Below, piece after piece: positions 3,062 through 27,884 of a stretch of 33,343 nt of DNA; position 1 is the stretch's first letter; each line of letters begins with the position of its first letter. The notes below the pieces were generated by a model that was given only the letters and a program-made list of their open reading frames with translations, had not been told where the DNA came from and searched no databases. Both the position numbers and the translations under genes were made by a program. Source of the stretch: a virus; the IMG/VR virus record IMGVR_UViG_3300007735_000636, positions 1 through 33,343 of that record. One strand, 5' to 3'.

Positions 3062-3658
3062 TCAGGCGGCCACCAGTTCCGGCTTGCGCACGCGCACAAC
3101 CGGCAGTCTGGCGGCCTTCAAGATCGCGTCGGCCAGCGGTTGCCGCAGGCTTGGCGTGTCGATTTCAATGCTGTCTGCGCCCATGATCGCGGCGAAGTTG
3201 CCAATGCGGTCAGGCGTTCCGATCATGGCAAAACCGGGCAGCGCGGGCTGCTCAAACATTTCAGGCGTGCGGTGTGCCTCGCCCACTGCCTTAATGCGTG
3301 ACCACGCGGCGCGGCGTTCGTTTACCCAAGCGCGGGCAAGGGTCAGACCATTGGCATAGACGCGCAGATGACCGGCGCTGCGGTTGCCGCCCCAGAAGCC
3401 AACAGCGCGGTCATCGTCGGCCCAGCGCATTTCGCCAGACACGCCGTCGATCAGCAGGATGTCGCCGTCAACGTTCAACGTGTCGCTGGCAGCGATCCAC
3501 CACATGCCATCGACTTGGATCGGCGCGAACGGCAGCATCGACCACCAATCGGCCCAATCGCAGCGCAGCGCCTTGGCCATCGCATCATGTGCGGCGGTGC
3601 GTTCCTCGCGCTTATAGATCGCGCGGCGGGCGGCATACCAGGCGGCGGCAACGGTCAA
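3062..3658 (-). CDS. Hypothetical early protein, 198 aa
   Basis: Not recognised. The N-terminal ~50 residues are helical and basic; residues 38-80 are Trp-rich and beta-like (DWADWWSMLPF, VDGMWWIAAS); the C-terminal half is mixed alpha/beta with a PLADAILKAARLPVVRV helix-strand. It sits directly upstream of the replication ATPase, ending 20 nt before its chosen start. It could be a replication accessory protein, but no catalytic motif is visible. The start is TTG at 3658, which overlaps the upstream stop in a TTGA junction. This is one of three such junctions in the genome, so I keep it, although an internal ATG is possible. Confidence 0.65.
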   Translation of the reverse strand: MTVAAAWYAARRAIYKREERTAAHDAMAKALRCDWADWWSMLPFAPIQVDGMWWIAASDTLNVDGDILLIDGVSGEMRWADDDRAVGFWGGNRSAGHLRVYANGLTLARAWVNERRAAWSRIKAVGEAHRTPEMFEQPALPGFAMIGTPDRIGNFAAIMGADSIEIDTPSLRQPLADAILKAARLPVVRVRKPELVAA

Positions 3659-3909
3659 AACAGCACCACCACATCAAGCGCGGCCCGCCACGCATCCGGC
3701 CCAAGCTCGCGCTTAATGATGGCCAGCGCCTCGCTGCGGTCAGTGCTGCCCCAAGCGTTGACTTCAATGCCGTTCAGCCAGCCCTTCAGATCATGCGCGC
3801 CGTGCGATGCGCAGCGGGCTTCGACCAGCTTGGCCCGGTCGCGGGTGAGCTTGATCTGTGCGCTTTCACGGGCGCTCGGATCAGGACGGAACTGGCCAAA
3901 GCCGCTCAC
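3655..3909 (-). CDS. Hypothetical early protein, 84 aa
   Basis: Small charged protein of unknown function. It has a basic amphipathic helix (RESAQIKLTRDRAKLVEARC) and a second helical segment near the C-terminus. The frame is open to 3921, but GTG at 3909 overlaps the VRR-NUC stop in a GTGA junction and has a GGGGGTGG ribosome-site-like run just upstream, so I prefer it. It overlaps the next gene by 4 nt at its 3' end. Position between nuclease and replication genes suggests a DNA-metabolism role, with no motif to support anything more precise. Confidence 0.55.
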   Translation of the reverse strand: MSGFGQFRPDPSARESAQIKLTRDRAKLVEARCASHGAHDLKGWLNGIEVNAWGSTDRSEALAIIKRELGPDAWRAALDVVVLF

Positions 3910-4349
3910 ATCCACCCCCAAGACCGCAGCGCAGCCAGCGCCTCATCAAGTGACGTAACAACCGCCGCCTTAAAACCATCGGCCTCCAAGTGCGCCAGTG
4001 TCGCCACTTGCCGCTCAGACAGCACACCGCCGGCCCGCTTGACTTCCAGCAGCCCAATTTCTGGCCCGCCGCGTTTCAGCGGTCGCAGCACCAGCAAGTC
4101 GGGAAAGCCGGCGACCTCGCCGTCCATCCTTTTGGCCATCGCCATGCGAAGCCGTGCGATGCTGTCGCCGTTGTATTGGCCACCGTTTGGAATGTGGATC
4201 ACGCGCAGATGCCGCTCTCGCAATCCCTTGACGATGCCGCGCTGGATGACGCGCTCGGTCGGGCCACCCTTGACCGCCTTGCCCACGCGGGTGCGCTTCA
4301 CCGGCTTTTCAAGCGCGGCAAGTTGTTCGGGCGTCCAGGCGCGGCTCAT
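3906..4349 (-). CDS. VRR-NUC domain nuclease
   Basis: A 147-residue PD-(D/E)XK nuclease of the VRR-NUC family. The pattern is clear: an N-terminal TERVIQ helix with E32, the IPNGG turn (54-57), GFPDLLVL with D84, GLLEVKRAGG with E102 and K104, then LSERQ with Q114. Stand-alone VRR-NUC proteins are common in phage early operons; they are thought to cut branched DNA such as Holliday junctions during replication and packaging (family knowledge). It overlaps the 45-aa gene upstream (ATGA) and the 84-aa gene downstream (GTGA). Length and motif spacing look complete and functional. Confidence 0.88.
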   Translation of the reverse strand: MSRAWTPEQLAALEKPVKRTRVGKAVKGGPTERVIQRGIVKGLRERHLRVIHIPNGGQYNGDSIARLRMAMAKRMDGEVAGFPDLLVLRPLKRGGPEIGLLEVKRAGGVLSERQVATLAHLEADGFKAAVVTSLDEALAALRSWGWM

Positions 4350-4483
4350 GCGCCGCCCCGACGAAACAGATAAACCGCCACGTCATCAATCGGCTGCCCG
4401 ACCAGCATGGCGATTTCGTAAACCGACTTGCCAAAGAAGTTCATGATGCGCGCCGCCCAGCGCCAGGGCAGAAGCGCGATCAT
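4346..4483 (-). CDS. Small hypothetical protein, 45 aa, HTH-like
   Basis: A short ORF filling exactly the gap between the DnaA-like gene and the VRR-NUC gene, with ATGA overlaps at both ends; this tiling is the main evidence that it is real. The N-terminal half is aromatic and hydrophobic (LLPWRWAARIMNFFG). The second half, KSVYEIAMLVGQPIDDVAVY, has the spacing of a helix-turn-helix (a three-residue turn between two short helices). It may be a minimal DNA-binding protein or a membrane-associated peptide. No family is recognised. Confidence 0.55.
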   Translation of the reverse strand: MIALLPWRWAARIMNFFGKSVYEIAMLVGQPIDDVAVYLFRRGGA

Positions 4484-4770
4484 GCCTGCGCCGCCATGTT
4501 GCGTGCGCGTGCCTGCCGCGACCACTCAGTGTTGCGCCTGCGCTTTTTGTCCCGGTTAAATGCGGCCCATACGCTGCTCGGCACCAAGCCAAGGAAGCGC
4601 GCAATCTCAGACTGACCCATACCGCACTCGGCAGCCAGCGCGCGGATCGCGGCATCACGGGCGCGCACAACTTCCTGAAACTTTGACCAGCCATAGATCG
4701 CAGCCGGGTTGACGCCGTGAGCATCAGCAATGCGATGCACGACCGCGTGACGTTTTTCGTAAGGCGTCAT
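4480..4770 (-). CDS. DnaA C-terminal-domain-like DNA-binding protein
   Basis: A 96-residue protein. Residues 36-78 (RARDAAIRALAAECGMGQSE followed by IARFLGLVPSSVWAAFNRDK) resemble domain IV of DnaA, which binds DnaA boxes through a helix-turn-helix. The usual DHSTV signature is replaced by PSSVW. The N-terminal part (VVHRIADAHGVNPAAIYGWS) looks like a second small helix-turn-helix. The C-terminus is very basic. ATG at 4770 has AAGGTGG upstream and overlaps the previous gene's stop by 4 nt. It may mark the phage origin for replication or act as an early regulator; there is no ATPase domain, so it is not a full DnaA. Confidence 0.65.
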   Translation of the reverse strand: MTPYEKRHAVVHRIADAHGVNPAAIYGWSKFQEVVRARDAAIRALAAECGMGQSEIARFLGLVPSSVWAAFNRDKKRRRNTEWSRQARARNMAAQA

Positions 4771-5267
4771 GCGGCCACCTTTTCGCTAGGCAGATACCAG
4801 CGCCCATCAGCGCCAAGCTCTCGCAACACCCACCCGTGCCTCGCCGCGACTTCACGAAAATGCTTTTCAAATTGCCGGGTTGCGTGCCGATCAACCGTCT
4901 CAAAGCAGCCGCCAGTTTGCGCACGCGGCACCGGGCCGGGTTCGCTGCGCTTCAACGTGATCGGCTCGGCAAGCAGGCGCGCAAGTCGGCGGGTGACGCT
5001 GTGATGCGAAAGGCCAAACTTGCGGGCAATCTCGCCGCGCGTCCGACCGGCTGCCGTCATCTTCAACAGGATCAAATCGCGCTCATCGTTCCAATTGGCA
5101 GCACGGTCGCCAAGCAAATCACGATCACGCAAATGGCGCACACGACCGCGCACTGAGTCCTGGGTGCGGCCTGTCAGTCGGGCGATAGAGTTATAGCTAA
5201 GGTTGCGCGCAATCATGTCTGCCAGCGCGGCATCTTCCTGCTGCGTCCATATAGTGTAAGAAACCAT
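4767..5267 (-). CDS. Double Myb/GcrA-like HTH DNA-binding protein
   Basis: A 166-residue protein with two tandem Myb/SANT-like three-helix units. The first (residues ~6-48) contains WTQQEDAALADMIARNLSYN then SIARLTGRTQDSVRGRV; the second (~54-96) contains WNDERDLILLKMTAAGRTRG then EIARKFGLSHHSVTRRLARL. Both carry the leading Trp and acidic pair typical of the fold. Such proteins are frequent in alphaproteobacterial phages and resemble the N-terminal half of GcrA. A C-terminal region ends in a WVLRELGADGRWYLP motif of unknown role. The frame is open to 5495, but the ATG at 5267 overlaps the preceding stop (TGATG) and begins exactly before the first Myb unit. It probably regulates early or late transcription. 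Confidence 0.72.
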   Translation of the reverse strand: MVSYTIWTQQEDAALADMIARNLSYNSIARLTGRTQDSVRGRVRHLRDRDLLGDRAANWNDERDLILLKMTAAGRTRGEIARKFGLSHHSVTRRLARLLAEPITLKRSEPGPVPRAQTGGCFETVDRHATRQFEKHFREVAARHGWVLRELGADGRWYLPSEKVAA

Positions 5268-5437
5268 CAGCGCACACCGGCAGCAGCAAGCAGGCGCGTG
5301 CGGCGCTTGGACAGTCGTTCGCGCGCCTCTGTGCAAATGTAGGCAGCGGCATAAGCGGTAACGGGCCGGGAGCTTTGGGGGTTGCTCAACCGGCCCGACC
5401 GGCGCGCAGGGTGGGAGGCGCGCGGGTTCTGGATCAT
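5267..5437 (-). CDS. Small basic protein, 56 aa
   Basis: Unknown, strongly basic (about one residue in five is Arg) with a helical C-terminal half (EARERLSKRRTRLLAAAGVR). The ATG at 5437 overlaps the cro stop codon (ATGA), and its own stop overlaps the next start (TGATG). An upstream extension to 5527 would lie entirely within cro and is rejected. It is the second gene of the leftward operon, the position of CII-type or other immediate-early regulators in lambdoid phages, but no CII-like motif is present. Confidence 0.55.
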   Translation of the reverse strand: MIQNPRASHPARRSGRLSNPQSSRPVTAYAAAYICTEARERLSKRRTRLLAAAGVR

Positions 5438-5641: not shown

Positions 5642-5660
5642 GCGACTTGCAAGCAGAAAC

Positions 5661-5675
5661 GTGCGATGGCAGCAC
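5661..5675. promoter_or_regulatory. Repressor operator site 2
   Basis: GTGCGATGGCAGCAC, 34 bp from site 1 (about three helical turns), in the cro-cI intergenic region. The spacing and orientation suit cooperative binding by CI-like dimers. Confidence 0.75.
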
Positions 5676-5757
5676 TTCCGCTGTCTAGGGGGACATGAAC
5701 GGGTGCGAAAAAGCCGCTAGCAACAGCGTGGCCTTTACGCAATGTTGAGGCATGAAC

Positions 5758-6318
5758 ATGCTACTTGTACGACAAAGGATGCGTGAGCTGGGCCTCACAC
5801 AGGAACAGGTCGCCGGGCATCTTAAAATTGACCGCACGGCGGTCAGCAAGTTCCTTAAAGGGACGCGCCAGCTATCGGCGCGTGAAGCGCAGACGCTTGC
5901 AGAATTGCTACAAATTGACGTTGTCGGCTTTCCATCCATTCGACAACTTCCAGTGATTGGCCTGGTGACAGCAGGCGGGTGGGCGCTGGCCGTAGAAGAC
6001 CCGCAATATCTTATGCCTGCTCCCGCGCCCGATCTGCCATCACAGGCGTTTGGCGTCATCATAACCGGCGACAGCATGGACAGGATCATGCCCGAAGGCT
6101 CGGTTGCAATCGTTGACCCGCAAGACCTTGATCTAGTGACGCGCGGTGTTTACGTTGTGATGAACGCTGATGAAGAAAGCACCATCAAGCAGTTCATGCC
6201 CGATCCTGCGCGCCTTGAACCCGTCAGCTTCAACCCCGACCACAAGACCATTTACCCAGGCCGCGAACCTTTCCGCATCATCGGGCGCGTGATCTGGCGC
6301 GCAGAACGGATGCGTTAA
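5758..6318 (+). CDS. CI-like S24 repressor
   Basis: A LexA/CI-type lysogeny repressor of 186 residues. The N-terminal helix-turn-helix covers residues ~3-52 (LTQEQVAGHLKIDRTAVSKF). The C-terminal S24 self-cleavage domain follows: possible cleavage pair A72-G73, catalytic S106 in GDSMD and K144 in STIKQF. It should hold both early operons off by binding the four GTGCGA-N5-GCAC operators and be cleaved on RecA activation during DNA damage (family knowledge). Two starts compete: ATG at 5752 lies only 1 nt after GAGG, while ATG at 5758 is 7 nt after it, so I use 5758. Divergent from cro. Confidence 0.9.
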   Translation: MLLVRQRMRELGLTQEQVAGHLKIDRTAVSKFLKGTRQLSAREAQTLAELLQIDVVGFPSIRQLPVIGLVTAGGWALAVEDPQYLMPAPAPDLPSQAFGVIITGDSMDRIMPEGSVAIVDPQDLDLVTRGVYVVMNADEESTIKQFMPDPARLEPVSFNPDHKTIYPGREPFRIIGRVIWRAERMR

Positions 6319-6332
6319 TCGCACGCTATTTT

Positions 6333-6347
6333 GTGCGATAGTCGCAC
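6333..6347. promoter_or_regulatory. Repressor operator site 3
   Basis: GTGCGATAGTCGCAC, an almost perfect palindrome downstream of the cI stop and upstream of the recombination operon. It pairs with site 4 to put the rightward operon under the same repressor. Confidence 0.75.
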
Positions 6348-6363
6348 TTTTCTATTGCACAAC

Positions 6364-6378
6364 GTGCGAATATAGCAC
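6364..6378. promoter_or_regulatory. Repressor operator site 4
   Basis: GTGCGAATATAGCAC, 31 bp from site 3. TTGCAC (6355-6360) just upstream is a plausible -35 element for a rightward promoter, so the site would sit within the promoter of the recombination operon. Confidence 0.75.
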
Positions 6379-6429
6379 ACTGTCCTCCCGCACCGCATAG
6401 CCCAAGAGGCTGCGGCGAGGGAGACGACA

Positions 6430-6963
6430 ATGCAATACCTTGCGCACAGAGGCGGCCCGCAGTGGGTCAGCGATGGCGAACCGTCAGACCAGGCCATTGA
6501 CGCCGCGCTGTTGACTGAGATCGCCCGCCGCGTGGGCATGGATTGGTTTGAGGCCGACGCCCAAATCCAGAACCACGCACCCGACGAAACCGAAGCAGAA
6601 GCCGCGACCGATCAGGCGCGGGCTTACACTGACGATATGCTGGCCCACGCGCTGCTGCGCATGATGGCCGAACGCCAGGCTGAGATGGTGCGGTTTCAGG
6701 CGGCACGGCTCATGCACATGACCGCCCGCGATGTGATGGAGCCGGTCAAATCAGCGCCCCAGATCGACGATTTTGACGAAGCTGCTTGCGACCGCTGGCA
6801 TGACGGTTGGTTCTTGGGGTTTCGCGGCAGCGCCTGCCCGGTTGATCCAGACGCGGCTGAAGGCTGGCGCGATGGCGTTGAGGCGCGGAAGGTGCGCCCT
6901 GTCCTGATGGAGCGCCCAGAGGGGTATTACCACGGCGCGATTGAAACGGAGGGTCGGCCATGA
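6430..6963 (+). CDS. Hypothetical protein with Rmf/CrpP-like C-terminus
   Basis: A 177-residue protein, first gene of the rightward recombination operon, with GGGAGA upstream of the ATG. The N-terminal ~110 residues are acidic and helical and are not recognised. The C-terminal segment (residues ~117-150) reads CDRWHDGWFLGFRGSACPVD followed by a Trp-Arg-Asp-Gly step, matching the spaced-Gly/CP/W-x-x-G layout of the ribosome modulation factor/CrpP fold found in many phage proteins. That match is weak and by eye. Its stop overlaps the next ATG. It may have no recombination role and simply be the first immediate-early protein on this side. Confidence 0.6.
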   Translation: MQYLAHRGGPQWVSDGEPSDQAIDAALLTEIARRVGMDWFEADAQIQNHAPDETEAEAATDQARAYTDDMLAHALLRMMAERQAEMVRFQAARLMHMTARDVMEPVKSAPQIDDFDEAACDRWHDGWFLGFRGSACPVDPDAAEGWRDGVEARKVRPVLMERPEGYYHGAIETEGRP

Positions 6964-7163
6964 CCGGCACCCGCGCACGCCCGTGGCTGCCAGCCATCAA
7001 CCAGCACGAACGCGACAGCCGCGCCGCGCTGATCGACCGCCGCCCAGAGCCGGGGTTCTGGCTTACGCTGGGCGCTGCGATCCACAATTACCCGCGCACT
7101 TGGCGAGTGTTCGTCACTATCACCGCTGGCATCTTGCTGGCGCAGATTGGGGCAATGCTGTGA
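6960..7163 (+). CDS. Small membrane protein, 67 aa
   Basis: It has a hydrophilic, Arg-rich N-terminal 45 residues, then a single predicted transmembrane helix at the C-terminus (VFVTITAGILLAQIGAML), giving a likely tail-anchored, N-in topology by the positive-inside rule. ATG overlaps the preceding stop (ATGA), and its own stop overlaps the GTG start of the exonuclease. Function unknown; small membrane proteins in early operons are sometimes superinfection-exclusion factors, but nothing specific supports that here. Confidence 0.6.
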   Translation: MTGTRARPWLPAINQHERDSRAALIDRRPEPGFWLTLGAAIHNYPRTWRVFVTITAGILLAQIGAML

Positions 7164-7864
7164 GCGCGCCCGACCACATCACCTATCACGATGCGTTTGA
7201 TCAGGGCAGCGACCAGTGGTTGCAGGCCCGCTGCGGAGTGCTGACCGCCAGCAACATCAAACTGATCATCACGCCGACGCTGAAGATGGCCAACAACGAT
7301 AAGGAACGCGCGCATCTGTTTGAACTGATGGCGCAGCGCATCACGGGCCACGTTGAGCCGCTGTATGTGACGGACGACATGCTGCGCGGCCACAGCGACG
7401 AAATCTTGGCCCGCGCCAAATACGCCGACATGTTCGCGCCCGTCACTGAGTGCGGTTTCATCACGAACAACCGCCACGGTTTTACGCTGGGCTATTCGCC
7501 AGATGGGCTGGTGGCAGATCGCGGCCTGATTGAGATCAAGAGCCGCCGCCAAAAATATCAGATTGAGACGCTGACCACGCACTATCTGGCCGGCGACTGC
7601 CCGCCTGATTTCCTGCTGCAATGCCACACCGGGATGCTGGTGAGCGAACGGCAATGGCTCGACCTGATCAGCTATTCGGGCGGCCTGCCAATGGCGGTAA
7701 TCCGCGTCTGGCCAGACGAAAAGGTGCAGGCCGCAATCCTTGAGGCCGCTGCCGGGTTTGAGGCGCGTCTGTCTGCCCGCCTGGCTGAATATCACGATTT
7801 GCTGGCGACCGATCCGCGCCTGATCCCCACCGAACGCACTATTGAAGAGGAGATGGTAATTTGA
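7160..7864 (+). CDS. YqaJ/lambda-type recombination exonuclease
   Basis: A 234-residue YqaJ-family nuclease, the lambda Exo relative that degrades one strand of a DNA end to start single-strand-annealing recombination. An N-terminal WLQARCGVLTASNI segment (20-33) is the usual R-x-G-x-TAS motif. Catalytic residues are D115 in GYSPDGLV, E125 and K127 in LIEIKSR, and Q154 in LLQCHTGM. Start is GTG at 7160, overlapping the previous stop (GTGA); the longer ORF upstream in this frame runs across the previous two genes and is not used. The next gene is coupled by a TTGA overlap. Confidence 0.88.
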   Translation: MSAPDHITYHDAFDQGSDQWLQARCGVLTASNIKLIITPTLKMANNDKERAHLFELMAQRITGHVEPLYVTDDMLRGHSDEILARAKYADMFAPVTECGFITNNRHGFTLGYSPDGLVADRGLIEIKSRRQKYQIETLTTHYLAGDCPPDFLLQCHTGMLVSERQWLDLISYSGGLPMAVIRVWPDEKVQAAILEAAAGFEARLSARLAEYHDLLATDPRLIPTERTIEEEMVI

Positions 7865-8538
7865 ACGCCCCCCTAGATATGAGCAAGTTCATCGAAGCCC
7901 GCAGCGACCAGATCGGGGCAGATGATCTGATCGGCGGCCCGCGCACATTTACCGTGCGCGGCGTAACGGCCAACGAAGGCGAACAGCCGGTCAACGTCTG
8001 GTTGGAAGGCGAGGAGCGGGTGTTTCGCCCCTGCAAGACGATCCGCCGCGTCATGGTGGCGATGTGGGGCGCAGATGCCAACCAGTATGTTGGTCGCTCA
8101 ATGACGTTGTTCCGCGATGCCGAAGTGCAATTCGGCGGAATGAAGGTCGGCGGCCTTCGCATTAGCCATATGTCTCACATCGACGGCGCGCGTGATGTGG
8201 TTGTCATGAAGGCTAAGGGCAAAAAGGCCGGCATGAAAATCCTGCCGCTGGCAACGAACACCCGCCCGCCTGCGCTGCCTGTCACGCCTGCCCCAAGTGC
8301 TGCCGATCCAGTGGTGGCGCAAAAGGTGGAACTGCCAGCAACGGCCCAAGATTGGATCGCTGAGACGATGCGCCAAGTCGCCGCCTGCAAGACGATCACC
8401 GACCTGGCTGAACTGCAAGCCGGCAAGGCGAAGGGGTTGGGCCGGCTTGAAGCGTTCCCCAAGGCTCATGCCGATGTGGTGGCGCTGTTCAATGATCGGC
8501 GCGCGGCAATTGAGACGGCGGAATCACCGCCGCACTGA
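7861..8538 (+). CDS. Probable recombination partner of the YqaJ nuclease
   Basis: A 225-residue protein directly coupled to the exonuclease. TTG at 7861 overlaps its stop (TTGA) and has GAGGAG 8 nt upstream, so I prefer it over ATG at 7879. Residues ~25-115 form a beta-rich region (FTVRGVTANEG, VNVWLEGEERVFRP, GRSMTLFRDAEVQFGGMKVG) compatible with an OB-type fold; a Pro/Ala linker and a helical C-terminal ~70 residues follow. The position is where phages usually encode the annealing or single-strand-binding partner. It does not look like RecT, Erf or Bet, so the role is inferred from context alone. Confidence 0.6.
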   Translation: MNAPLDMSKFIEARSDQIGADDLIGGPRTFTVRGVTANEGEQPVNVWLEGEERVFRPCKTIRRVMVAMWGADANQYVGRSMTLFRDAEVQFGGMKVGGLRISHMSHIDGARDVVVMKAKGKKAGMKILPLATNTRPPALPVTPAPSAADPVVAQKVELPATAQDWIAETMRQVAACKTITDLAELQAGKAKGLGRLEAFPKAHADVVALFNDRRAAIETAESPPH

Positions 8539-10625: not shown

Positions 10626-10804
10626 CACTCGCCCTTCGTCGTCGGCGCTGCCATCATGCCAGCACCCAGCACGCCAAAGATCACCGCGTCTTTGACATCG
10701 GCATAGCTGAAACCTAGCGGCCCCGATGCGAACGCTGCCACTAGCACGATTGCACCGGCCCATGTGCTGCGCTCACTCAGTCGCGCGCGAATGTATTTGA
10801 TCAT
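10625..10804 (-). CDS. Holin-like two-TM protein, 59 aa
   Basis: It begins MIKYIRARLSERSTWAGAIV: a basic N-terminus, then a hydrophobic helix (~residues 15-32), a short loop (SYADVKDA) and a second hydrophobic helix (~40-53, VIFGVLGAGMMAAP), ending in TTKGE. The size, two membrane segments and charged ends fit a class II holin, which forms the membrane lesion that releases or activates the endolysin. Its ATG overlaps the endolysin stop (TGATG). No specific holin family is recognised by name. Confidence 0.75.
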   Translation of the reverse strand: MIKYIRARLSERSTWAGAIVLVAAFASGPLGFSYADVKDAVIFGVLGAGMMAAPTTKGE

Positions 10805-11307
10805 CAGCCTTCTCCCGTTGTGTCAGCAGCGGCAGAACCAGCCCACGGTGCAGGCGATGACCGCGCAACACCCTTGGGCCAGCGCAGATCAAGCAGTCGC
10901 GCACGCGGAAAACGGCGCACGTTGACCGCATCGCCTTGGTTGCCGCCCAAAATGTTCAGCGATCCGTCAGTGTTGACGCTTTCAACGAAACCGACATGCC
11001 CGCCGCCGTCTCGGCCAAACACGGCGACACAGCCCAGCGGTGGACGCGTAGCAGTCGTGCCGACGCTATCACCCCAAGACGCCCACGCCTTCGCACGGAT
11101 GGCAATGGGTGGCGGTTTCAGGCCAGCTTGGGTGATGCAATGGGCTGCGAACAGACCGCACCAAGGCACCCCATCGTTGCCGTATGCGATGCCCAGCACC
11201 TTAGCGCCAAGACGGTTGCCCCACGCCATGATCACCGGATTGCTGGCACCGCCTGGTACCTCGCGCAGCCCGATGTGGCGGCGCGCTTCGTCAAGCCATT
11301 TGAGCAT
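10804..11307 (-). CDS. Endolysin, TIGR02594/CHAP-like
   Basis: A 167-residue cell-wall hydrolase of the TIGR02594 family (NlpC/P60-CHAP superfamily). Visible features are the N-terminal LDEARRHIGLREVPG helix, the catalytic Cys50 in VPWCGLFAAHC, His104 in GGHVGFVES and the polar residue N123 in GGNQGDAVNV. It should cut the peptide part of peptidoglycan. There is no signal peptide or SAR helix, so it depends on the adjacent holin. The ATG at 11307 has a perfect GGAGG 4 nt upstream. The Ala/Ser-rich C-terminal ~20 residues look disordered. Confidence 0.88.
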   Translation of the reverse strand: MLKWLDEARRHIGLREVPGGASNPVIMAWGNRLGAKVLGIAYGNDGVPWCGLFAAHCITQAGLKPPPIAIRAKAWASWGDSVGTTATRPPLGCVAVFGRDGGGHVGFVESVNTDGSLNILGGNQGDAVNVRRFPRARLLDLRWPKGVARSSPAPWAGSAAADTTGEG

Positions 11308-11360
11308 GTGGCCTCCTGTGATTTAATTTTGCGCTTTATTTCGCAAGGCTGGCGGCCAAA

Positions 11361-11534
11361 TCAGCCGGGCTGATCGGCCCCCGTTGCCCGCCTGATGGCG
11401 TCTTGAAACTCTTGCTGGCGGCGCTTGATGATGCCGGCAAACTGGCGCTCAACCTCGGCCACAGCGCGCGTGATGGCGGCATCGCGGGCTTCATAGGCTT
11501 CGTGCAGCGCGTCCAAGGCGTCGAGGGTGTTCAT
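11361..11534 (-). CDS. Small coiled-coil protein, 57 aa
   Basis: Almost entirely helical: MNTLDALDALHEAYEARDAA followed by an amphipathic helix with QFAGIIKRRQQEFQDAIRRA. It overlaps the phosphoesterase stop by 4 nt (ATGA), which sets the start at 11534; the longer frame upstream lies inside that gene. Function unknown. Position just before the endolysin makes it a member of the late operon, possibly a lysis or virion accessory protein. Confidence 0.5.
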   Translation of the reverse strand: MNTLDALDALHEAYEARDAAITRAVAEVERQFAGIIKRRQQEFQDAIRRATGADQPG

Positions 11535-12703
11535 GCTGCCTCCAGCATTTCGGGCCGCACGGTGTTGCGCGCGACTTCGCCAAACTGTGCGTGGTAGGTG
11601 ATGCCAATGGCCGCCCGCTCTGCATGGTAGCCGCCCCGTGCGCTGTAGGCGTCCTTTGCCGATAGCGTTGGGTGTTGCTCCACAATCGCGCCGCCATCTT
11701 CCTTCAATCGGCGGTGATGCAAATGCCCGGTGTGCAGATAGACCTTGCTGCACCGCCCCCACATGGCCCGAAATTGCGCGGCAAATATGCTTGTCAGGCC
11801 ATCCATCTTGGAAAGGTGCGTATGGTGCCAGCCCAGCATGATCGAGCCAAACTCAAAGGCGTAATAGGGCAGTTCGCTGTCGATCACCTCAACGCGCGGC
11901 TCATGTTCGTAGAGCGCCTTGAACATGTGCCGCAGCCATACCGACGATGCCAGATCGTGGTTGCCCTCGGCCATCAAGACGATGACGCGGCGATGCTTGA
12001 GCAAGGCACGGTCAACCAGCCCACGCAGCGCCTTGATGGTGGCACTCACCATCTTGGAAAATCGCCCGTCTGCATCAAGCGGGTGGCCGCTGGTAGGCGT
12101 GGCAGCAACCAGCCCATCGTAATGCAGGAAGTCGCCAAGCTGGGCGATCACGCATGTATCGGCGGCAGGCGCACCGGCAACCATCGCCGCAAACGCACCG
12201 TCAAGAACACGCGAGGCAATGCCGATGTCCCAATCAGCGCCGCCCTCTTTGTGCCAGGCCAGCATCCCCATGTGATAATCGGTGAAGGTGTAGACGTTGC
12301 ACAGCAAGGCAGACGTGACACTCGGCGGTGCAACAGGATCGGCGCGCGGCAAGGATGATGCCATCGCCTCAAACGCGGCGCGGATAGCCTCATCACGGCG
12401 CTCTTGGTCAAGGCTTGTCTTGACCCACTGCCCGCGTTGGTTGCCGTCCGCGTCAAAATAGGTGGAGACGCCCTTGACGACATAGGCACCGCCGCCGTCA
12501 CGTTCCGGCGAGGCAGGGATGCCGCCTGTATAGTCGCCCGTGCGGCGCTGATGGCGCTTGCAAGCCTGCTGCACTGCCGACCGGCTCACGTTCAACTCGG
12601 CGGCGGCTTTGTTCATGCTGCCTAGCTGTTCAGCGAGATCAGCAATCGCGGCATCCTGCGCCGGGTCAATCTCCGTTGCATTGCGCGCCAGCGTGATGCT
12701 CAC
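11531..12703 (-). CDS. Calcineurin-like metallophosphoesterase with N-terminal HTH
   Basis: A 390-residue protein. Residues ~30-52 (MNKAAAELNVSRSAVQQACK) form a helix-turn-helix. Residues ~135-365 carry the metallophosphoesterase signature: D142-x-H144 in TDYHMGM, GD (190-191), GNHD (247-250), H293-H294 in GWHHTHL and GHLH (326-329). It should be a two-metal phosphodiesterase or nuclease. Similar HTH-phosphoesterase proteins occur in alphaproteobacterial phages, with roles unknown to me. It is encoded late, between the tail-tip and lysis genes, an unusual place for a DNA or nucleotide enzyme. The start overlaps the upstream stop (ATGA). Confidence 0.85.
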   Translation of the reverse strand: MSITLARNATEIDPAQDAAIADLAEQLGSMNKAAAELNVSRSAVQQACKRHQRRTGDYTGGIPASPERDGGGAYVVKGVSTYFDADGNQRGQWVKTSLDQERRDEAIRAAFEAMASSLPRADPVAPPSVTSALLCNVYTFTDYHMGMLAWHKEGGADWDIGIASRVLDGAFAAMVAGAPAADTCVIAQLGDFLHYDGLVAATPTSGHPLDADGRFSKMVSATIKALRGLVDRALLKHRRVIVLMAEGNHDLASSVWLRHMFKALYEHEPRVEVIDSELPYYAFEFGSIMLGWHHTHLSKMDGLTSIFAAQFRAMWGRCSKVYLHTGHLHHRRLKEDGGAIVEQHPTLSAKDAYSARGGYHAERAAIGITYHAQFGEVARNTVRPEMLEAA

Positions 12704-12906
12704 TTAGGCGCACCCCACAGGAACGCCGCAATCCCCGCGATGGCCGCCAGCACACCGACTAGCCATTTCAGCACAACGCCGCCAACCTTAGCTGCCTGAT
12801 AGACCTCGCTGACCGGCGTGATCTTGGCGTCAAGCGCGTCTAGTCGCTCTTCAAGGCGCGCAATTGAGACTGCCAAATCGGCATGGCTGGGCTGGTTTGG
12901 CTGCAT
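12700..12906 (-). CDS. Coiled-coil plus single-TM protein, 68 aa
   Basis: The N-terminal ~45 residues form a helix with heptad character (LAVSIARLEERLDALDAKIT), followed by a C-terminal transmembrane helix (VLKWLVGVLAAIAGIAAFLW). This is the layout of XhlA-type or antiholin-like phage proteins that associate with lysis cassettes. AGGAGC precedes the ATG at 12906. It could modulate the holin encoded 2 kb downstream. Confidence 0.65.
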   Translation of the reverse strand: MQPNQPSHADLAVSIARLEERLDALDAKITPVSEVYQAAKVGGVVLKWLVGVLAAIAGIAAFLWGAPK

Positions 12907-12993
12907 GGGTTGCTCCTGATCTTACAACGCAGCCTGCCAGCCGTGATCCTCGCCGGCAGACGATACGCAAACGCAACGAGTGGTGGTGGGTGT

Positions 12994-13131
12994 TTAGTCG
13001 GTTGTGCTGGGCGGATTGCACGGCCTGACGGTGCAGTCTGTTGGCGTGTTGGCCTGCAAATCTTCCAGGTTGCTCACGAAAATTGTTTTTAAAACGCTTC
13101 CAGAAGCGTCAACGACTTCATACCAGCCCAT
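12994..13131 (-). CDS. Small hypothetical protein after the tail-tip gene, 45 aa
   Basis: Short protein beginning MGWYEVVDASGSVLKTIFVS, ending in a Cys/Pro/Thr-rich tail (CTVRPCNPPSTTD). The ATG at 13131 lies 3 nt after the J-like gene's stop, with AAGGTGA upstream in the end of that gene. Small proteins just after a tail-tip gene are common in phages, sometimes as fibre-assembly factors, but no family is recognised. The next 87 bp (12907-12993) hold no feature apart from the ribosome site of the following gene. Confidence 0.5.
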   Translation of the reverse strand: MGWYEVVDASGSVLKTIFVSNLEDLQANTPTDCTVRPCNPPSTTD

Positions 13132-13134
13132 GAA

Positions 13135-16100
13135 TCACCTTCTGATTTCCGTGCCAACAAGCGTCAGGTTTTCAAATGTGACCCCGCCATTTTGTCTGAC
13201 TTGAATGGTGTATTTCACCGACCCGCTAGTGCCGTGGTTGTCTACCCATACGATAGATGGCGTTGTGGCCATCGTGTAATTGATAGTTGCAGTGCCAAAA
13301 TTGCCGCCTACTTCAACAGTCATATTGGCTGCCGTCAGCGTGTTGAGAAACGTGTTGTAAATTGTAGTGTCGGTGCCTCCGACCGTCCTTATAATGCGCA
13401 ATTCTGCTGACGCGCCAAATGTTGACGACACGTCCATGATCACGCGCATTGAGGCATCAACGCGGACTGAGGTGCCGCTGGCGACTGTTAGCGTCACATC
13501 GCTGTAGGTCGTCCAGGTGTTAGAGGTCGGGTTTATGCCCGTCGCAACATTGACCGCCACAACGCGAGTGATGGCCTGCAACGCCACCTGAGACGTGTCC
13601 ACGCCAGCGTTTGCAATGCTCAACTGCCCACCGCTGTTGGTCAACTGCAAGCCGTTGAGATTTAGTCTGTTGGTGTTAATCGTTCCGGCATCAATCTTGT
13701 CGGCGCTCAGATTGAAAATCTTGGCGTTGGTGATAACGCCGTCTGCTATCTGCGCAGAAGCCGTGATCAGGTTGGAAGTTGCAAGCTGCGTTGAGGTGAT
13801 GGTGTTGGCTTGCAGCCGGTTGCCGGTAATGGTGCCGGCTGCAATTTCGTTTGCCGTAACCGCGCCAGCCGCCAGCTTTGCTGTCGTCACCGCCCCCGCC
13901 GCAATCTCGGAAGCTGTGACAGCCCCTGCCGCAATCTTGTCAGCAGTGATCGCGTCAGCGGCCAGGGTTGCGGTCGTGACGCTGCCAGCCGCCAGCTTCG
14001 GCGTTGAAATCGCGCCGTCTGTAATCTGCGTGCCGGTGATTTGCCCTGTCACCTTGGCCGCTGCGATTGCCGAAAGCTGCGCGTCGGTCAGTTGTCCAGA
14101 GACTTTTCCAGCAGCCAGCGCCGCAATTTGCGCGTCCTGCAATTGGCCTGAAATGCGATCCGCAAGCGTTCGACCGTTAATGATGAGGCCGCTGCTATCA
14201 ATCGCGGCACTGACGCGGCCAGAGACATCATCTGCGGACATCGAGCCAACAGGGGTGCCAGCAGGCGCGCCAACCGTGGCAGTGCCAAGATAAACCATGC
14301 TAATTTCGTGGATTCGGATTGTTTCCGGGATCGTGCCGTCAAAGTCAATCCGCACCCGCCTAACGATTTCATCGCGCCAGGCGTTGCCGCCCATTGTCAG
14401 GTTGTGCATGTCCAGCAACACTTCAAACGGCGTTCCGTTTGTCGGGTGGTTTGCGGGAATCCAATCACCGTTTTTGGAGCGTGTCCCGTCAATTGGCGCG
14501 TAGGCGTTGGTGCTGAAATAGACTTCGACGTTACGCATTCCCGCAGACAACGAGGCAGTGGCTGAAAGGATCAGCCGCAGATAGCGTCCGACCTGGCCAT
14601 CAATGCCTAGCAGATCAGGCGACATCCAAGACGTGTCAGTTGAATTGGCGGTGTAGGTCACAAACTGCGACCCGGCGGTTACTGTTGGTGCAGAGCCGCT
14701 CTGCGCAACGCCAGACCAACCGTTAAGCGACTGGTTGTTAAACGCCCATTGCCGCACCGCCACACGCTGCGAGGTGTTGCTGATCTCGCCATCGGTCAGG
14801 GTGCGCCCGCCGCTGTCAAGCAAGTTGGTTCCGGCGACTGCGCCAACCGTCGCATTATCAGCAGGGCGGCCCGTGCCGGTGACACTCGGCCAGAGCGCAG
14901 TCGTTCCGGCGGTGGAGATGTTAGTTGCCACTGTTGCCGCTGGCGTGCCGCCCAGCGCGTTTGCATTGGCTGCCGTGTTGGCGCTGGTAACATCGGCACC
15001 AGGCGCAATATCCGCCATCAGCCAGCTTGCAGCCGCCCGGCTGTCAAACACCACGGGCGCAACCGGCGTAACCACGGCGCTTTCGCTGGCCGACCACGCA
15101 TAGATCGCTGCGTTTTCCTCACGCAGCACAACGTCAACCGTTGCGTCATCGTTGAAGCCCAGCGACCGGACGCGGAACAGCTTGGCCGTCCACCCGCGCG
15201 CCGATGATGTGACGGCAACCACCATGTTGCGCCGCAGCAGCCAGCCACGCACACCCAGCGTGACGGAAAACGTGCCTTGATAGAGGTTGCGCTGGGCTGC
15301 CTGCTTGGCGATGCGCTCGGCACGGCGCGGCTCTTGGACGGCGCTCAGTTCCAGCGTCAGCGGACGCGGTGCCAGCGATGTGCGCGCGATGGCGACTTCG
15401 GGATAATCCACCAAGCCATAAAGCGTTGCGCCTGGTGCGCTGTAACGGCCACGCACCACCGTGTATTGCTGCTCAATCGGTGCGGCGGGCTTCCACGAAT
15501 AGCCGCTGACAAAATCATCATCGGTCAGCGTGAACGAAGGCGTCAGATCATTGACCGCAAGCCGCAGCGAAAGCCGCCCGCCATCGTCCACCAGTTCGCC
15601 GTTCATGGCGTCCAGCAGCGTGCGGATCACCGCCAGCGGATCGTCACTGTCGGCAAAGGCCCGGCCCGCCTCATAGCGGCGCTGTGAGCCAAAATCCGCC
15701 AGCGCAACGCTTTCATCGCACAACGCCGCAGCGGTGGCGAAGGATGGCAGATCAATCGTATCAACAGGCAGGCCACAGCCGACCGACACAACGCCGCCGA
15801 TCCGCCAGCCCAGCAGATAGGTGAGCAGTTGCAGCGCCGGGTTATTGCCGCGCGCTGCGCCTGCTGTGTAAGCCCAAGTCGTTTGCGTGGCCGCGCGCTG
15901 TGCGCCACTGCCGCCCGCAACCGTGCTGTCTTGCGCCGGATCATAGACCGGGATGCCGCGACCAATGACAGCCCAACGGCCATTAATGCCGCTGCTAAAC
16001 GGCGATTGGCTGTTCTTACTGTTGTCGCTGCGCTTCACCCGCACCTTCATTGTGGTGCAGCCCGTCATCCGCGTGTTGCTGCCCCAAATCGTGCCAGCGT

Positions 16101-20801: not shown

Positions 20802-21218
20802 TTAGACCAGCACATCGGTGGACGGCGCAGCGACAGGCGTGAACGCAACATTGACGGTGTTCACGTCATTGAGCGGGCTGCCGGTGTTCATCGACGCAAC
20901 GCGCATTGAGCAGGCAAAAACTACCGTAGGCGTGCCGGTCTTGACGATCTGAATGATTGTTGCGGCACCGCTGGCGAAGATCGTTTCGAGGCGCGTGTGG
21001 CCTGCCGCATCAGGCAGATCGGGGCGATACTCAAGCGAGAGGCTGTAGTTCCGCATCGCGCGCCCGGTGGTTTCCACCAGCGCAGATTTGTCGATAGTGC
21101 TGAATGAAGTCTCGCCGCGATCCAGCGTAACGCTGATCTGGCCAGCAACCTCGGCAAAGGTGCCAGGCGTGGCGCTGTCAACGCGCACGCGATATTCATT
21201 TGATGAAAGTTTAGCCAT
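20802..21218 (-). CDS. Tail tube protein, copy 2
   Basis: A 138-residue beta-rich tail subunit (RVRVDSATPGTFAEVAGQIS; DRGETSFSTIDKSALVETTG; SLEYRPDLPDAAGHTRLETI) and a close paralogue of the gene just upstream, with both ends nearly identical (MAKLSSN and FACSMRVASMNTGSPLNDVN). Tube subunits stack as hexameric rings to form the tail. It differs from copy 1 mainly at residues 12-24 and 86-101, which are likely exposed loops. TTAGACC starts the gene's 3' boundary and only 12 bp separate the two copies. Confidence 0.82.
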   Translation of the reverse strand: MAKLSSNEYRVRVDSATPGTFAEVAGQISVTLDRGETSFSTIDKSALVETTGRAMRNYSLSLEYRPDLPDAAGHTRLETIFASGAATIIQIVKTGTPTVVFACSMRVASMNTGSPLNDVNTVNVAFTPVAAPSTDVLV

Positions 21219-21230
21219 CGCAATAGCTCC

Positions 21231-21647
21231 TTATGCCAGCGTGTCAGTGGTGGGGGCAGCAACCGGCGTGAATGCCGCGTTGACCGTGTTCACATCGTTC
21301 AGTGGGCTGCCGGTGTTCATGCTTGCCACCCGCATGGAGCAGGCAAACACCACGTCACCCACGGCAAAAGGTGACTTGCGGACTTGAACGCCAATGGCCG
21401 CGCCGCTGGCGTAAACAGTTTCGAGGCGCGTATGGCCTGCCGTGTCGGGCAGATCAGGGCGGTATTCCAGCGCAAGGCTGTAGTTGCGCATCGCCCGGCC
21501 CGTCACTTCAACGACAGACGCCTTGTCGATGGCGCTGAATGAAGTTTCGCCGCGATCAACAGTGGTGCTGATCTGGCCGGCAACGGCGCTAAAGACAGAC
21601 GCAGTGTCGATGAAAACGCGGTAATCGTTAGATGAGAGTTTAGCCAT
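21231..21647 (-). CDS. Tail tube protein, copy 1
   Basis: The upstream member of the tandem pair, also 138 residues and about 70% identical to copy 2 by eye. Conserved blocks are VAGQIS, DRGETSF, TGRAMRNYSL, LEYRPDLPD, GHTRLET and ASMNTGSPLNDVNTVN. It carries an extra KSPFAVGD loop near residue 95. Copy 1 lies directly after the tail completion protein, where a single major tail gene is normally found. Which copy is the main tube subunit cannot be decided from sequence. Confidence 0.82.
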   Translation of the reverse strand: MAKLSSNDYRVFIDTASVFSAVAGQISTTVDRGETSFSAIDKASVVEVTGRAMRNYSLALEYRPDLPDTAGHTRLETVYASGAAIGVQVRKSPFAVGDVVFACSMRVASMNTGSPLNDVNTVNAAFTPVAAPTTDTLA

Positions 21648-22563: not shown

Positions 22564-22904
22564 TAGGTCGGCACGCCTGCGGTCACAAACGCCACCAACT
22601 CATGCCGCCGCCCGTCTGGATCGGCGATGCTATCAATCCGCAAATCAACCGCATCGCCGTCAGAGCGCAGCCACACTAGCCGGCAATCGACCGGCACATC
22701 TGCACGGTAGCGCATACGCAACTTGAAACGCTGCTGGCCAATTGAGATTAGCCCGCCTTCCAAATCTTTCCCGCCGCCGGTTGGCATCAGTTCCGCAAAC
22801 ACCGTGGCAACGGTTGCCCAGATCGTCACCTGACCGCCAGCGCCGTCGCTGGTGTGTGCGGGGCGATCAATCCGCACGCGGTCGCGCAGCTTGCCGATAC
22901 GCAT
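22563..22904 (-). CDS. Head-tail adaptor/stopper, SPP1 gp16-like
   Basis: A 113-residue protein of the phage head-tail joining family: MRIGKLRDRVRIDRPAHTSD, GGQVTIWATVATVFAELMPT, FKLRMRYRADVPVDCRLVWL and a final RRHELVAFVTAG. The family forms the stopper ring below the connector that retains DNA. It overlaps its neighbours by single nucleotides and lies directly after the gp8-like connector, the standard order. Confidence 0.82.
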   Translation of the reverse strand: MRIGKLRDRVRIDRPAHTSDGAGGQVTIWATVATVFAELMPTGGGKDLEGGLISIGQQRFKLRMRYRADVPVDCRLVWLRSDGDAVDLRIDSIADPDGRRHELVAFVTAGVPT

Positions 22905-23803
22905 CAGGCCACCATCAGAACGCGATAGGCGCTGGTTAGAGCTTCATACGCTAGCGGCACATCAGCCGGCGTGCCGTCGCTGGTCACGGCTTCGCGGTGT
23001 TCATACCAGTGGCCGATCAGCAGCAGCGCGGCGTGCCGCAACGAGGCCGGCACTGCGTCATTGCTGGCATAGCCGGCCTGATACGTCACGCGCACCGTGC
23101 CGATGCCAAGCTCTACCGCAGGCCACGTCACAGCGTTGGCCGGCACAATCCACGATGCACCGGCAAAGCTACGCACCCGATACTGATTTGCTGCCAGCAC
23201 CTGTTCAGCACCAGATTCGTCGTCGTAAGCAACGCCCGTCACCGACACGACCGGCCCGCGCCACAACGGCAGGCGCTGGCGGCCATTGGTTGCCCAACCA
23301 TCAAACGCCACGCTCACCGCGCGCTGGCGCAGCACCAGCCCGGTGTCGCGTTCGATCTTGTCGGCAGCCGCGCGGATCAGGCCAACAATGTGGTCATTCT
23401 CGCTGTCGTCCACCACGCGCAGATGCGCCTTGGCTTCGGCCAGGGTCAGCGGCGCATTGAGCGCATCCGACTGTGCCACCCGCACCAGCACAGACCGCTG
23501 GAACGTGCGCGCCGGGCTGGCGTTGGTGGTCACGGTCGCGGTGACGACTGCCAACACACCCGCCGCAAACGCTGCGTTGCTGGGCTGCGCACAGGTCAAC
23601 CAGAAGCGCACCGACTTGGAAACGGCGATAGGTGCATAGCTGCCTGAACCCAGCGCCAGGCCAACGCCCGTGCTGGCCGCGTCAATCGCCACCGATTGCA
23701 GCGCAACGGTTTCGTTTGCGTCGAGCAGATCGTCAAAGGCGATCACATAATCCGCCACATCGGACGGATCGTGCATACCGGCGAACAGCGGTGCCTCGCT
23801 CAT
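22904..23803 (-). CDS. Fusion: adaptor domain plus phiE125 gp8-like connector
   Basis: A 299-residue protein with two parts. Residues ~117-299 match the phiE125 gp8/TIGR02215 head-tail connector (LTLAEAKAHLRVVDDSENDH, IERDTGLVLRQRAVSVAFDG, VPASLRHAALLLIGHWYEHR), which normally stands alone at ~190 residues. Residues 1-111 (DPSDVADYVIAFDDLLDANE then TVALQSVAIDAASTGVG) are a beta-rich domain resembling the phage fibre-adaptor proteins that usually are separate genes. The ORF is continuous with no internal stop, so the fusion is real in this sequence. It overlaps the repeat protein by 4 nt. Confidence 0.75.
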   Translation of the reverse strand: MSEAPLFAGMHDPSDVADYVIAFDDLLDANETVALQSVAIDAASTGVGLALGSGSYAPIAVSKSVRFWLTCAQPSNAAFAAGVLAVVTATVTTNASPARTFQRSVLVRVAQSDALNAPLTLAEAKAHLRVVDDSENDHIVGLIRAAADKIERDTGLVLRQRAVSVAFDGWATNGRQRLPLWRGPVVSVTGVAYDDESGAEQVLAANQYRVRSFAGASWIVPANAVTWPAVELGIGTVRVTYQAGYASNDAVPASLRHAALLLIGHWYEHREAVTSDGTPADVPLAYEALTSAYRVLMVA

Positions 23804-24993
23804 AATCGTGTCTCCCGCCTACCGCCCAACAAATTCAACGTCCGCGATCCGCCAGCCACATCAGCGGCCCGGTCGCCACCAGACGGCGATGCCGCACGCA
23901 CAGCGCCCGCAACACCAACACTTCGGCTTTGGCCATCAACGGTCAGCACCCTATCGCCCACCGGCACCAAGTTACCGACAACCAAGGCCGCTTGATCACC
24001 AACCAGGCCAATCGTGCCGTCATTGGCCGCAACACGCGCCAGAGCGCCCAGCGCCGCATTGCCTGCCACCAAGCCCACAACGCCCGCATTGGCCGCCAGC
24101 GTGGCGCTGGCTTGCGTTACGGTCGCAGTGCCACTCAATCCAACTGTGCCGGCACCAACCGACAGATCAGCCGGCGCTTGCAACGTCAGCGCATCGGTCA
24201 AACCCAGCGTGCCAGCGTTAGGCAGCAAGGCCGCATCGGCTGCCAAAGCTGTAGAGCCGCCCAGCAAGCCAAGCGCGCTTGGTGCCATCACCAACGCGGC
24301 ATTTGCTGTTAAGGCCGCCGCGCCGCCAGACAGCCCGCTAGTTCCGGCATCAACAGACAGCGCGGCATCCGCTGCAAACGTTGCCGCGCCAGCAGAGAGG
24401 CCCAGCGTGCCTGCATTGGCAAACAACGCCACGCCAGACGCAAACTGCGCATCTCCGCCTGCAATACCTAGCACGCCCCCGTTGGCCGCTAGACTTGCTG
24501 CACCGCTAAAGGTTGCCGTGCCGCCGACCAGGCCAATGTTGCCTGAATCCGGCGCAATCGCTGCGACAGCGGCAAAGGTTGCCGCACCGCCAGTTAGCCC
24601 AACTGCGCCCGCTGCGCCGGTTAGCGTTGCCGCTGCCGCAAACGCAGCATCGCCGCCAGACAGCCCAAGCGCGCCGCTGTCAGCCGCTTGGCTGGCCGCT
24701 GCCGTAAACGTTGCAACGCCGCCCGTTAGCCCAAGCAAACCGGACGCGCCTGCTAGTGCAGCCGCCGCCGTAAATGTCGCAGTGCCACCCGAAAGGTCGA
24801 TGCTGCCGGCGTTAGGCGTAATCGTAACCGCGTTGCTGGCCGGTGGTGCGAGGCCAACAACCGGCTGTCCGGCCAGTGTGTAATCAAGCGTGTTTGACGA
24901 AGGCGAAAGCGCCTTAGCTTCCAGGTAAGCGGCAGGCTGCCCTGCGCCCGTAAAATCAAGCGTTAGAACATCACTCCGGGTCGGCAGCGGCAT
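23800..24993 (-). CDS. Repeat protein with 13 x 22-residue units
   Basis: A 397-residue protein, very rich in Ala and Gly. An N-terminal ~58 residues (LDFTGAGQPAAYLEAKALSP, LDYTLAGQPVVG) resemble the LDY-x-GQP segments of phage fibre-like proteins. Residues 60-344 hold 13 tandem 22-residue units (type ANAGTLGLSAGAATFAADAA) with a G-x-L-G-L core, and the last 53 residues are different (VLTVDGQSRSVGV). Predicted extended beta-type structure, perhaps a solenoid fibre shaft. It lies between the spike-like and connector genes. No family recognised; function as a structural fibre is inferred. Confidence 0.75.
   Translation of the reverse strand: MPLPTRSDVLTLDFTGAGQPAAYLEAKALSPSSNTLDYTLAGQPVVGLAPPASNAVTITPNAGSIDLSGGTATFTAAAALAGASGLLGLTGGVATFTAAASQAADSGALGLSGGDAAFAAAATLTGAAGAVGLTGGAATFAAVAAIAPDSGNIGLVGGTATFSGAASLAANGGVLGIAGGDAQFASGVALFANAGTLGLSAGAATFAADAALSVDAGTSGLSGGAAALTANAALVMAPSALGLLGGSTALAADAALLPNAGTLGLTDALTLQAPADLSVGAGTVGLSGTATVTQASATLAANAGVVGLVAGNAALGALARVAANDGTIGLVGDQAALVVGNLVPVGDRVLTVDGQSRSVGVAGAVRAASPSGGDRAADVAGGSRTLNLLGGRRETRL
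23962..24816 (-). repeat. 66-nt tandem repeat array coding 22-residue units
   Basis: Thirteen consecutive units of 22 residues (one of 21) within the repeat protein gene. The units are diverged, so the array is old rather than a recent expansion; conserved positions are G4, the G-x-L step at 7-8 and small residues in the second half. Confidence 0.8.
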
Positions 24994-25174
24994 CTGTCAT
25001 AACCTCCGCTGCCATCTGTTCCTGCATCATCGCGTCGAAACGCGCAGCCTCGGCCTGTATCTCTTCATCTGTCAAGTCGTCTTGAAACTTGAACGCCACG
25101 GTCTGGCCGTTGATAGCCACGCGAACGCGCCACTTGCCGGCGTCGTCCTGCTCACGGTCGATGATCTCGTACAT
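24971..25174 (-). CDS. Small acidic protein, 67 aa
   Basis: MYEIIDREQDDAGKWRVRVA, then NGQTVAFKFQDDLTDEEIQA and a helical acidic tail with several Met. The first half looks like a small beta sheet (EIIDREQDDAGKWRVRVAIN), the second is helical. Start ATG at 25174 follows the spike gene stop by 2 nt; the longer frame to 25300 lies inside that gene. It overlaps the repeat protein by 23 nt. Small proteins of this type often accompany phage fibre genes, but no family is recognised. Confidence 0.6.
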   Translation of the reverse strand: MYEIIDREQDDAGKWRVRVAINGQTVAFKFQDDLTDEEIQAEAARFDAMMQEQMAAEVMTDAAADPE

Positions 25175-27521: not shown

Positions 27522-27884
27522 TTACACCAGCGCCGTCGCGGTCACGGTAAACGCGGCCACGTTGATGGCCGATCCGCTGTTAGCCGTCTGCGCGGTGCCG
27601 GTCGTCACATAGACCAGCGCAGATGCCGTGCAGAGCGCAACGTGGTCGATGTTGCCGCTGCTGTTGGCGGTGGCGCTTTTAGCAGCAACAGTCAGCACGC
27701 GGTTGCCGGTGCTGGTTGTCTTGGCATAATCACCGCCAGCCATCGTGATAGCCGCAGCGTGACGCGCCTTGCTGATTGCGTCGGCACGGTCAGTCGGCTG
27801 ACCGTTGCAGATGTAGAGTTCTGTCGCCGTAGCGATCACGTCTAGCGGCGCGTCTTGAACCGCCAGAGATGCAAATTTGGCCAT
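27522..27884 (-). CDS. Hypothetical decoration-type protein, 120 aa
   Basis: A 120-residue Ala/Thr-rich protein directly after the capsid gene, the usual place of a head-decoration protein. It begins MAKFASLAVQDAPLDVIATA and contains NRVLTVAAKSATANSSGNID and a beta-rich C-terminus (VYVTTGTAQTANSGSAINVA). A start at 27884 is favoured by AAAGG upstream; the frame is open to 27905. No family recognised, but size, composition and position fit an outer-capsid or fibre-base protein. No coiled coil or membrane segment. Confidence 0.6.
   Translation of the reverse strand: MAKFASLAVQDAPLDVIATATELYICNGQPTDRADAISKARHAAAITMAGGDYAKTTSTGNRVLTVAAKSATANSSGNIDHVALCTASALVYVTTGTAQTANSGSAINVAAFTVTATALV

Follow-up and report, generated by a model that had tools for sequence, protein, structure and literature searches.

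The window analysed here is the whole 33,343-nucleotide stretch of the IMG/VR virus record IMGVR_UViG_3300007735_000636. Its minus strand encodes, in transcription order, TerS, TerL, a portal protein, a protease, an HK97-type capsid protein, a 119-aa protein, a 776-aa protein, a 67-aa protein, a repeat protein, a 299-aa connector, a head completion protein and the tail proteins. The repeat gene, which is our subject, thus lies between the capsid gene and a gp6-like connector gene, that is, among the head genes, where the initial annotation had placed it without giving a strand. A cassette that begins with the 776-aa beta-helix gene and continues with the 67-aa ORF has the repeat gene in third place. 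The 67-aa ORF runs 23 nt into the repeat gene, whose stop codon in turn overlaps the connector start (23800/23803); the genes are therefore translationally coupled. The repeat protein itself is made up of three tracts: an amino-terminal module (N-module), an array of repeats and a carboxy-terminal tail (C-tail). The features of the locus are as follows.

27522–27881, minus: small protein of 119 aa (127 aa in the ORF list, which starts it at an upstream TTG), a candidate fibre ‘bead’ by gene order only; homologues adjoin Gp77 in L171 and in Microcystis phage Mae-JY22
25177–27507, minus: 776-aa beta-helix protein, the partner of the N-module (AlphaFold2 pLDDT 93.4, pTM 0.89)
24971–25174, minus: 67-aa cassette ORF (MYEIIDREQDDAGKWRVRV...), with the 23-nt overlap
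23800–24993, minus: repeat protein (candidate tether), 397 aa, a complete ORF with an ATG start at 24993
24850–24993, minus: N-module (residues 1–48), with two LDxxxxGQP motifs (residues 12–20 and 36–44)
23953–24807, minus: 13-unit array with a 22-residue repeat (residues 63–347); AlphaFold2 pLDDT about 70–87 over most of it
24151–24213, minus: lone 21-residue unit (residues 261–281)
23803–23958, minus: C-tail (residues 346–397), with RxPhixPhi motifs spaced 9, 18 and 9 residues apart
23468–23803, minus: Gp77-like domain (podophage GP4 fibre–tail adaptor), connector residues 1–112, a full-length profile match
22904–23467, minus: gp6-like head–tail connector core (Phage_connect_1, E 5.9e-11; phrog_442, E 7.9e-30)

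Repeat array: exchange, length and fold

The units of the array start at residues 63, 85, 107, 129, 151, 173, 195, 217, 239, 261, 282, 304 and 326. They follow one another without gaps and all measure 22 residues save the one of 21, exactly as first described. Identity at a lag of 22 is 0.425 over residues 56–345, as compared to 0.150 ± 0.021 in 300 shuffles, of which the maximum was 0.20. Within the twelve 22-residue units, G1, G4, L5 and F/L12 are each conserved in 11/12 and A10 in 10/12, further conserved positions are L3, A14, A16 and L18, and the repeats as a whole are rich in Ala and Gly. Mean pairwise identity between units is 42% for amino acids and 51% for nucleotides. With about half of their nucleotides differing, the units are old duplications, and the array is not a recent expansion. 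(Elsewhere in the window, at 1756–1828, an 11-bp tandem repeat of 6.5 copies within a 515-aa helicase-like ORF encodes a proline-rich C-terminal stretch.)

The repeat protein has no match in Pfam or PHROGs at E ≤ 1 and none in a sequence search of the PDB, and tblastn with the whole protein and with its L018 homologue found no match in the phage collection. The initial annotation's statement that no known family comes to mind thus holds for these databases, but its description of the protein as new does not extend to the 22-residue repeat. The same type A unit, of the GxYxLTGxxAxL type, is present in gp72 of EBPR siphovirus 2 and in UOF81327 of MW202742 (a Manatee Spring phage). Neither of these proteins has the N-module that precedes the array in the window: gp72 is a fusion of the repeats with a further long domain, whereas in UOF81327 the array stands alone.

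Relatives of the repeat protein in viral contigs are of two kinds. Those in L002–L005 are close (462 residues, or fragments), and those in L006–L014 belong to other phages and share little with the window protein past its first 48–80 residues. In the latter, the N-module of about 48 residues is 85–98% conserved while the part downstream of it differs, and can consist of 22-residue repeats of type B or C, of two type A units, or of almost nothing (in a protein of 69 aa). Repeat types A, B and C each have a period of about 22 residues (C also 23); a common origin of the three was considered, and profile–profile comparison detected no similarity between them. The arrays also change in length. Those of L002 and L004 are exactly 65 residues longer than that of the window, which corresponds to three units (22+21+22). 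Homologues with different repeat numbers, which had been proposed as a check, are at hand in these two contigs. The N-module, the array and the C-tail have different histories. The 22-residue pitch is not universal: the N-module is followed by an array with a 14-residue period at L123 8565–9617 and by Thr/Ser tracts at L141 8401–9771.

In the AlphaFold2 model the array forms a beta-solenoid, to which each unit contributes three short strands, and these strands coincide with three hydrophobic Phi-x-Phi stretches; the N-module and the C-tail have pLDDT below 60. Structure comparison with the AlphaFold2 model of the repeats returned right-handed beta-helices with Z up to 22 (VIA Z 22.2 to 2odl). 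A Foldseek search of the array model against the PDB and BFVD gave no match at E ≤ 0.001, and we did not use this null result as a sign of a new fold. The solenoid or fibre shaft that was initially suggested is thus what AlphaFold2 gives, and the Phi-x-Phi pattern agrees with it. However, AlphaFold2 builds beta-solenoids for 41% of random perfect repeat sequences (PMC11795689), so the fold of the array is not established, and it may be either a solenoid rod or an extended chain that carries beads.

Amino-terminal module and its beta-helix partner

The two N-terminal segments noticed at the outset (as LDY-x-GQP) have the form LD[FY]xxxGQP in the window protein, and proved to be part of a real and widely conserved module, whose HMM retrieved 62 distinct proteins. 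Mean column identity is 94% among six near forms. The module co-occurs with the beta-helix gene in both directions. We counted 108 copies of the beta-helix gene that are followed by at least 1.5 kb of sequence (redundant contigs included); a module gene lies within 3.5 kb of 102 of these, and the small ORF is conserved downstream in 73. The partner gene is present for 87 of the 91 module genes, mostly at a spacing of 165–190 bp. The pair is found in unrelated phages, in the Methanosarcina virus MetMV and in a Methanoperedens contig. Such co-occurrence can be linkage only. In L006, two beta-helix partner genes stand in tandem (3070–5406 and 5644–7914) upstream of a single module protein whose type B array measures 687 aa.

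The 776-aa partner is predicted by AlphaFold2 to be a right-handed beta-helix that starts at residue 1. The model resembles the pectate lyase Pel9A, alginate lyases/epimerases and the tailspikes of Sf6, P22 and CBA120 (TSP2), with Z of 18–28 and rmsd of 2.2–4.4 Å in single-domain alignments; this likeness in fold is that of the partner, not of the repeat protein. It differs from these tailspikes and enzymes in having inserted jelly-roll-like regions and in being without an N-terminal virion-binding domain of its own. Because the modelled helix begins at the first residue, which leaves no room for the usual N-terminal virion-binding domain, we expect that such a spike should need an adaptor.

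Carboxy-terminal tail and the neck

On its other side, the repeat gene adjoins that of the connector, which carries an added domain in residues 1–112. Against the Gp77 profile (PF23148), this domain scores 22 bits in the window, which is below the Pfam cut-off of 27, and 28.6 bits in the orthologue from L018. The domain is present in the window, L002–L005 and L018, and absent from L016, L017, Pan4 and Mae-JY02. In the distant virus G034, the order of genes is beta-helix, 81-aa ORF, module/repeat protein, a separate Gp77 protein, connector and head completion. We considered Gp77 as a general partner of the cassette and rejected this idea, with a Gp77 match in only 4 of 40 cassette-bearing records; since most of these records show no Gp77, docking there must differ. 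(In L018, whose capsid is 94% identical, two proteins stand in place of the beta-helix at 10647–13381, one of 562 aa and one of 348 aa that has PYITAYPWSGSGFGTKFSNPATLP-type repeats.)

The C-tail co-occurs with this domain. Its nine-residue RxPhixPhi spacing recurs in proteins encoded upstream of Gp77 in L018, L175, L179, L185, Mae-JY22, Itty13, BcepMigl and POI1126. We scanned 9790 ORFs of at least 60 aa, and found two or more nine-spaced motif pairs in 15, each of which precedes a Gp77-type domain directly or at a short distance (the Gp77 match in L185, counted among the 15, is weak at 25.5 bits). A Fisher p of 2e-20 for the association should be read as no more than a rough guide, since several cases had been seen before the motif was defined. 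Phages examined after this definition also carry the motif, with two pairs in BcepIL02 and one pair each in JC1, PBC5 and Atu_ph08. It is missing from about half of the Gp77 loci examined (L140/G034, L169, L170–L174, L177, L180, L184 and Aegeus). Repeats of period 20 or 22 are encoded by the gene before Gp77 in L179 and L184 (prophages from one phylum) and in the archaeal contig L169. In this last contig, from Methanoperedens, the gene at 270–1478 encodes a 402-aa protein with a 22-residue period and no Arg tail; it is directly upstream of Gp77, which there forms the N-terminus of a 426-aa protein.

Recombinants bear on where on the virion the protein might be attached. As compared to the window, L004 has unrelated head genes (TerL 28%, portal 26%, capsid 29% identity), yet its 119-aa protein, beta-helix protein, 67-aa ORF, connector and tail genes are 84–96% identical, and its longer repeat gene has 61% identity in the best segment. 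L016 has a capsid (96%) and a head completion protein (98%) that are nearly those of the window, and its cassette is replaced. The exchange of head genes in L004 around a cassette, connector and tail that are retained, save for the repeat gene with its variable length, disfavours the attachment to the head that had been inferred originally. The other half of that proposal, an elongated appendage near the neck, is the best reading of the Gp77 domain, the order of genes in G034 and the tail motif. The assumption that the N-terminus is the anchor looks reversed, however: by these associations, the N-module goes with the beta-helix spike gene, and the C-tail with the neck adaptor domain. Among the tail genes of the window, two adjacent and similar tail-tube-type genes (20802–21218 and 21231–21647, minus strand, 138 aa each) form a tandem duplication that is kept in L002 and L004.

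A candidate fibre tether and its alternatives

The reading in which we place about half of our confidence is that a siphovirus carries a side fibre at its neck in which the repeat protein serves as the tether, or ‘rope’, with its C-tail on Gp77 and its N-module on the beta-helix spike. The C-tail, with its nine-residue RxPhixPhi motif, would dock on the Gp77-like adaptor domain that is fused to the gp6-like connector. The double LDxxxxGQP module would hold the 776-aa spike, which is encoded two genes upstream. The 13 units would set the reach of the fibre: they may fold by themselves into a beta-solenoid, or stay extended and be strung with small bead proteins like the chain-like fibre of GP4. 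The sequences themselves show the three tracts, the coupled cassette, a different partner gene for each end, and an array that is exchanged and changes in length. For this arrangement we infer that there is physical binding at both ends, that the protein is present in the virion, and that the spike binds or cuts a sugar of the host surface. A broader version, which we put forward tentatively and think somewhat doubtful, is that of a plug-in adhesin system of bacterial and archaeal tailed viruses, in which a spike that lacks a virion-binding domain is hung by a tether. The (LDxxxxGQP)2 plug would fit the spike, the nine-residue ladder would fit Gp77, and the middle would be swapped freely at a 22-residue pitch.

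Fibre I of GP4 reportedly consists of five bead dimers joined by an elongated rope protein. The GP4 structure (PDB 8jou) contains gp77 in three chains and a 140-aa bead protein (8jou_a) in ten. The bead is homologous to BcepMigl gp56 (E 2.5e-59), and gp77 and the bead together are homologues of the genes that flank the repetitive protein in Bcep22-like phages. The gene order in these phages is bead, repetitive protein with the tail motif, (in BcepMigl) a pectin-lyase-like gene, Gp77 and tail fibres. The period of the repetitive protein is 20 residues in BcepIL02 gp56 and 22 in JC1 gp54. Annotations of BcepIL02 and BcepMigl call the protein virion-associated; in JC1, virion proteomics detected its neighbours gp53 and gp55 (bead and Gp77) but not gp54 itself.

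The window shares with the Bcep22-like phages (BcepIL02 gp55–gp57, BcepMigl gp56–gp59) three traits of a rope-type protein docked on Gp77, namely repeats with a period of 20–22, a nine-spaced RxPhixPhi tail and a Gp77-like domain encoded closely downstream. Both also have a gene for a small protein near the repetitive gene (a virion protein in the Bcep22-like phages), and the pectin-lyase-like gene beside the repetitive protein of BcepMigl has a counterpart in the 776-aa beta-helix gene. At the level of sequence, tblastn between the window repeat protein and the Bcep22-type protein gave no match either way, and the accepted cases themselves have unlike repeat sequences; there is likewise no detectable sequence homology between the window protein and the GP4 proteins. 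The 119-aa protein was considered as a homologue of GP4 gp80 or of phrog_644, and profile comparison was not significant. The window protein may be said to belong to the GP4 kind of fibre in a distant sense. New with respect to that kind are the addition of the module and its beta-helix partner, the fusion of Gp77 to the connector, and the interchangeable 22-residue arrays. A further likeness concerns a neighbouring gene, not the repeat protein. The ‘Tail wing arm, gp31’ of PDB 9d93, whose source phage we take to be mycobacteriophage-type, is a homologue (E 7.4e-9) of the phrog_644 small protein, which occurs in 58 loci, mostly cassette loci (L012 5083–5487 and 57 others); at this position the window encodes another small protein.

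Several alternatives to a tether were weighed. The repeat protein could be a self-folding beta-solenoid fibre, as a monomer or a trimer, that projects from the virion, with the N-module as its virion anchor, a receptor-binding far end, and the beta-helix as a separate spike. We think this unlikely, although phage fibres are usually anchored N-terminally, and the three modelled strands per unit, the beta-helical structural neighbours and the three Phi-x-Phi stretches all agree with it. The model is of a kind that AlphaFold2 also produces from random repeats, and had no Foldseek match. Moreover, the N-module is near-identical across phages with unrelated heads and necks, yet tracks the beta-helix gene, and it is the C-tail that tracks the neck adaptor. 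It is improbable that the protein is an assembly factor or chaperone for the spike which is not retained in the virion. Tight coupling to the spike gene, the minimal 69-aa versions and the absence of the related-position JC1 protein from virion proteomics are consistent with such a role, for which long, exchangeable arrays of variable length would be unusual, and the proteins in homologous position in BcepIL02 and BcepMigl are annotated as virion-associated. Quite improbable, too, is a low-complexity passenger with no functional link, located at a recombination hot spot that lies between the genes for capsid and connector: relatives differ at this site and the repeats are Ala/Gly-rich, but the association with the partner (102/108), the 22-residue period common to three unrelated repeat types and the restriction of the tail motif to Gp77-adjacent ORFs argue against it. 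Finally, a capsid decoration or head fibre on the major capsid protein, as the position of the cassette just downstream of the capsid gene might suggest, is very improbable, given that L004 keeps the cassette despite its unrelated capsid, that in L015–L017 the capsid is 96% identical and the cassette gone, that in L012 the cassette sits between portal and scaffold, and that in the relatives Pan4 and Mae-JY02 the site is almost empty, with only a 61-aa gene.

Receptor-binding parts of phages swap between unrelated virions, and the joints that permit this exchange are poorly defined. Each end of the repeat protein co-occurs with a different partner gene, and its middle is replaceable; the joints are therefore predictable from sequence. 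If the protein is indeed a tether, it shows how unrelated bacterial and archaeal viruses exchange adhesion parts. By the LDxxxxGQP module, candidate anchors of beta-helix spikes can be recognized in viruses of both domains, and the nine-residue tail motif marks many ‘hypothetical’ genes beside Gp77 as candidate fibre tethers. One of these is an unannotated 184-aa ORF of Agrobacterium phage Atu_ph08 (L199, 5441–5995, plus strand), which has the nine-spaced Arg tail and lies directly upstream of Gp77; the GenBank record has a minus-strand gene there instead.
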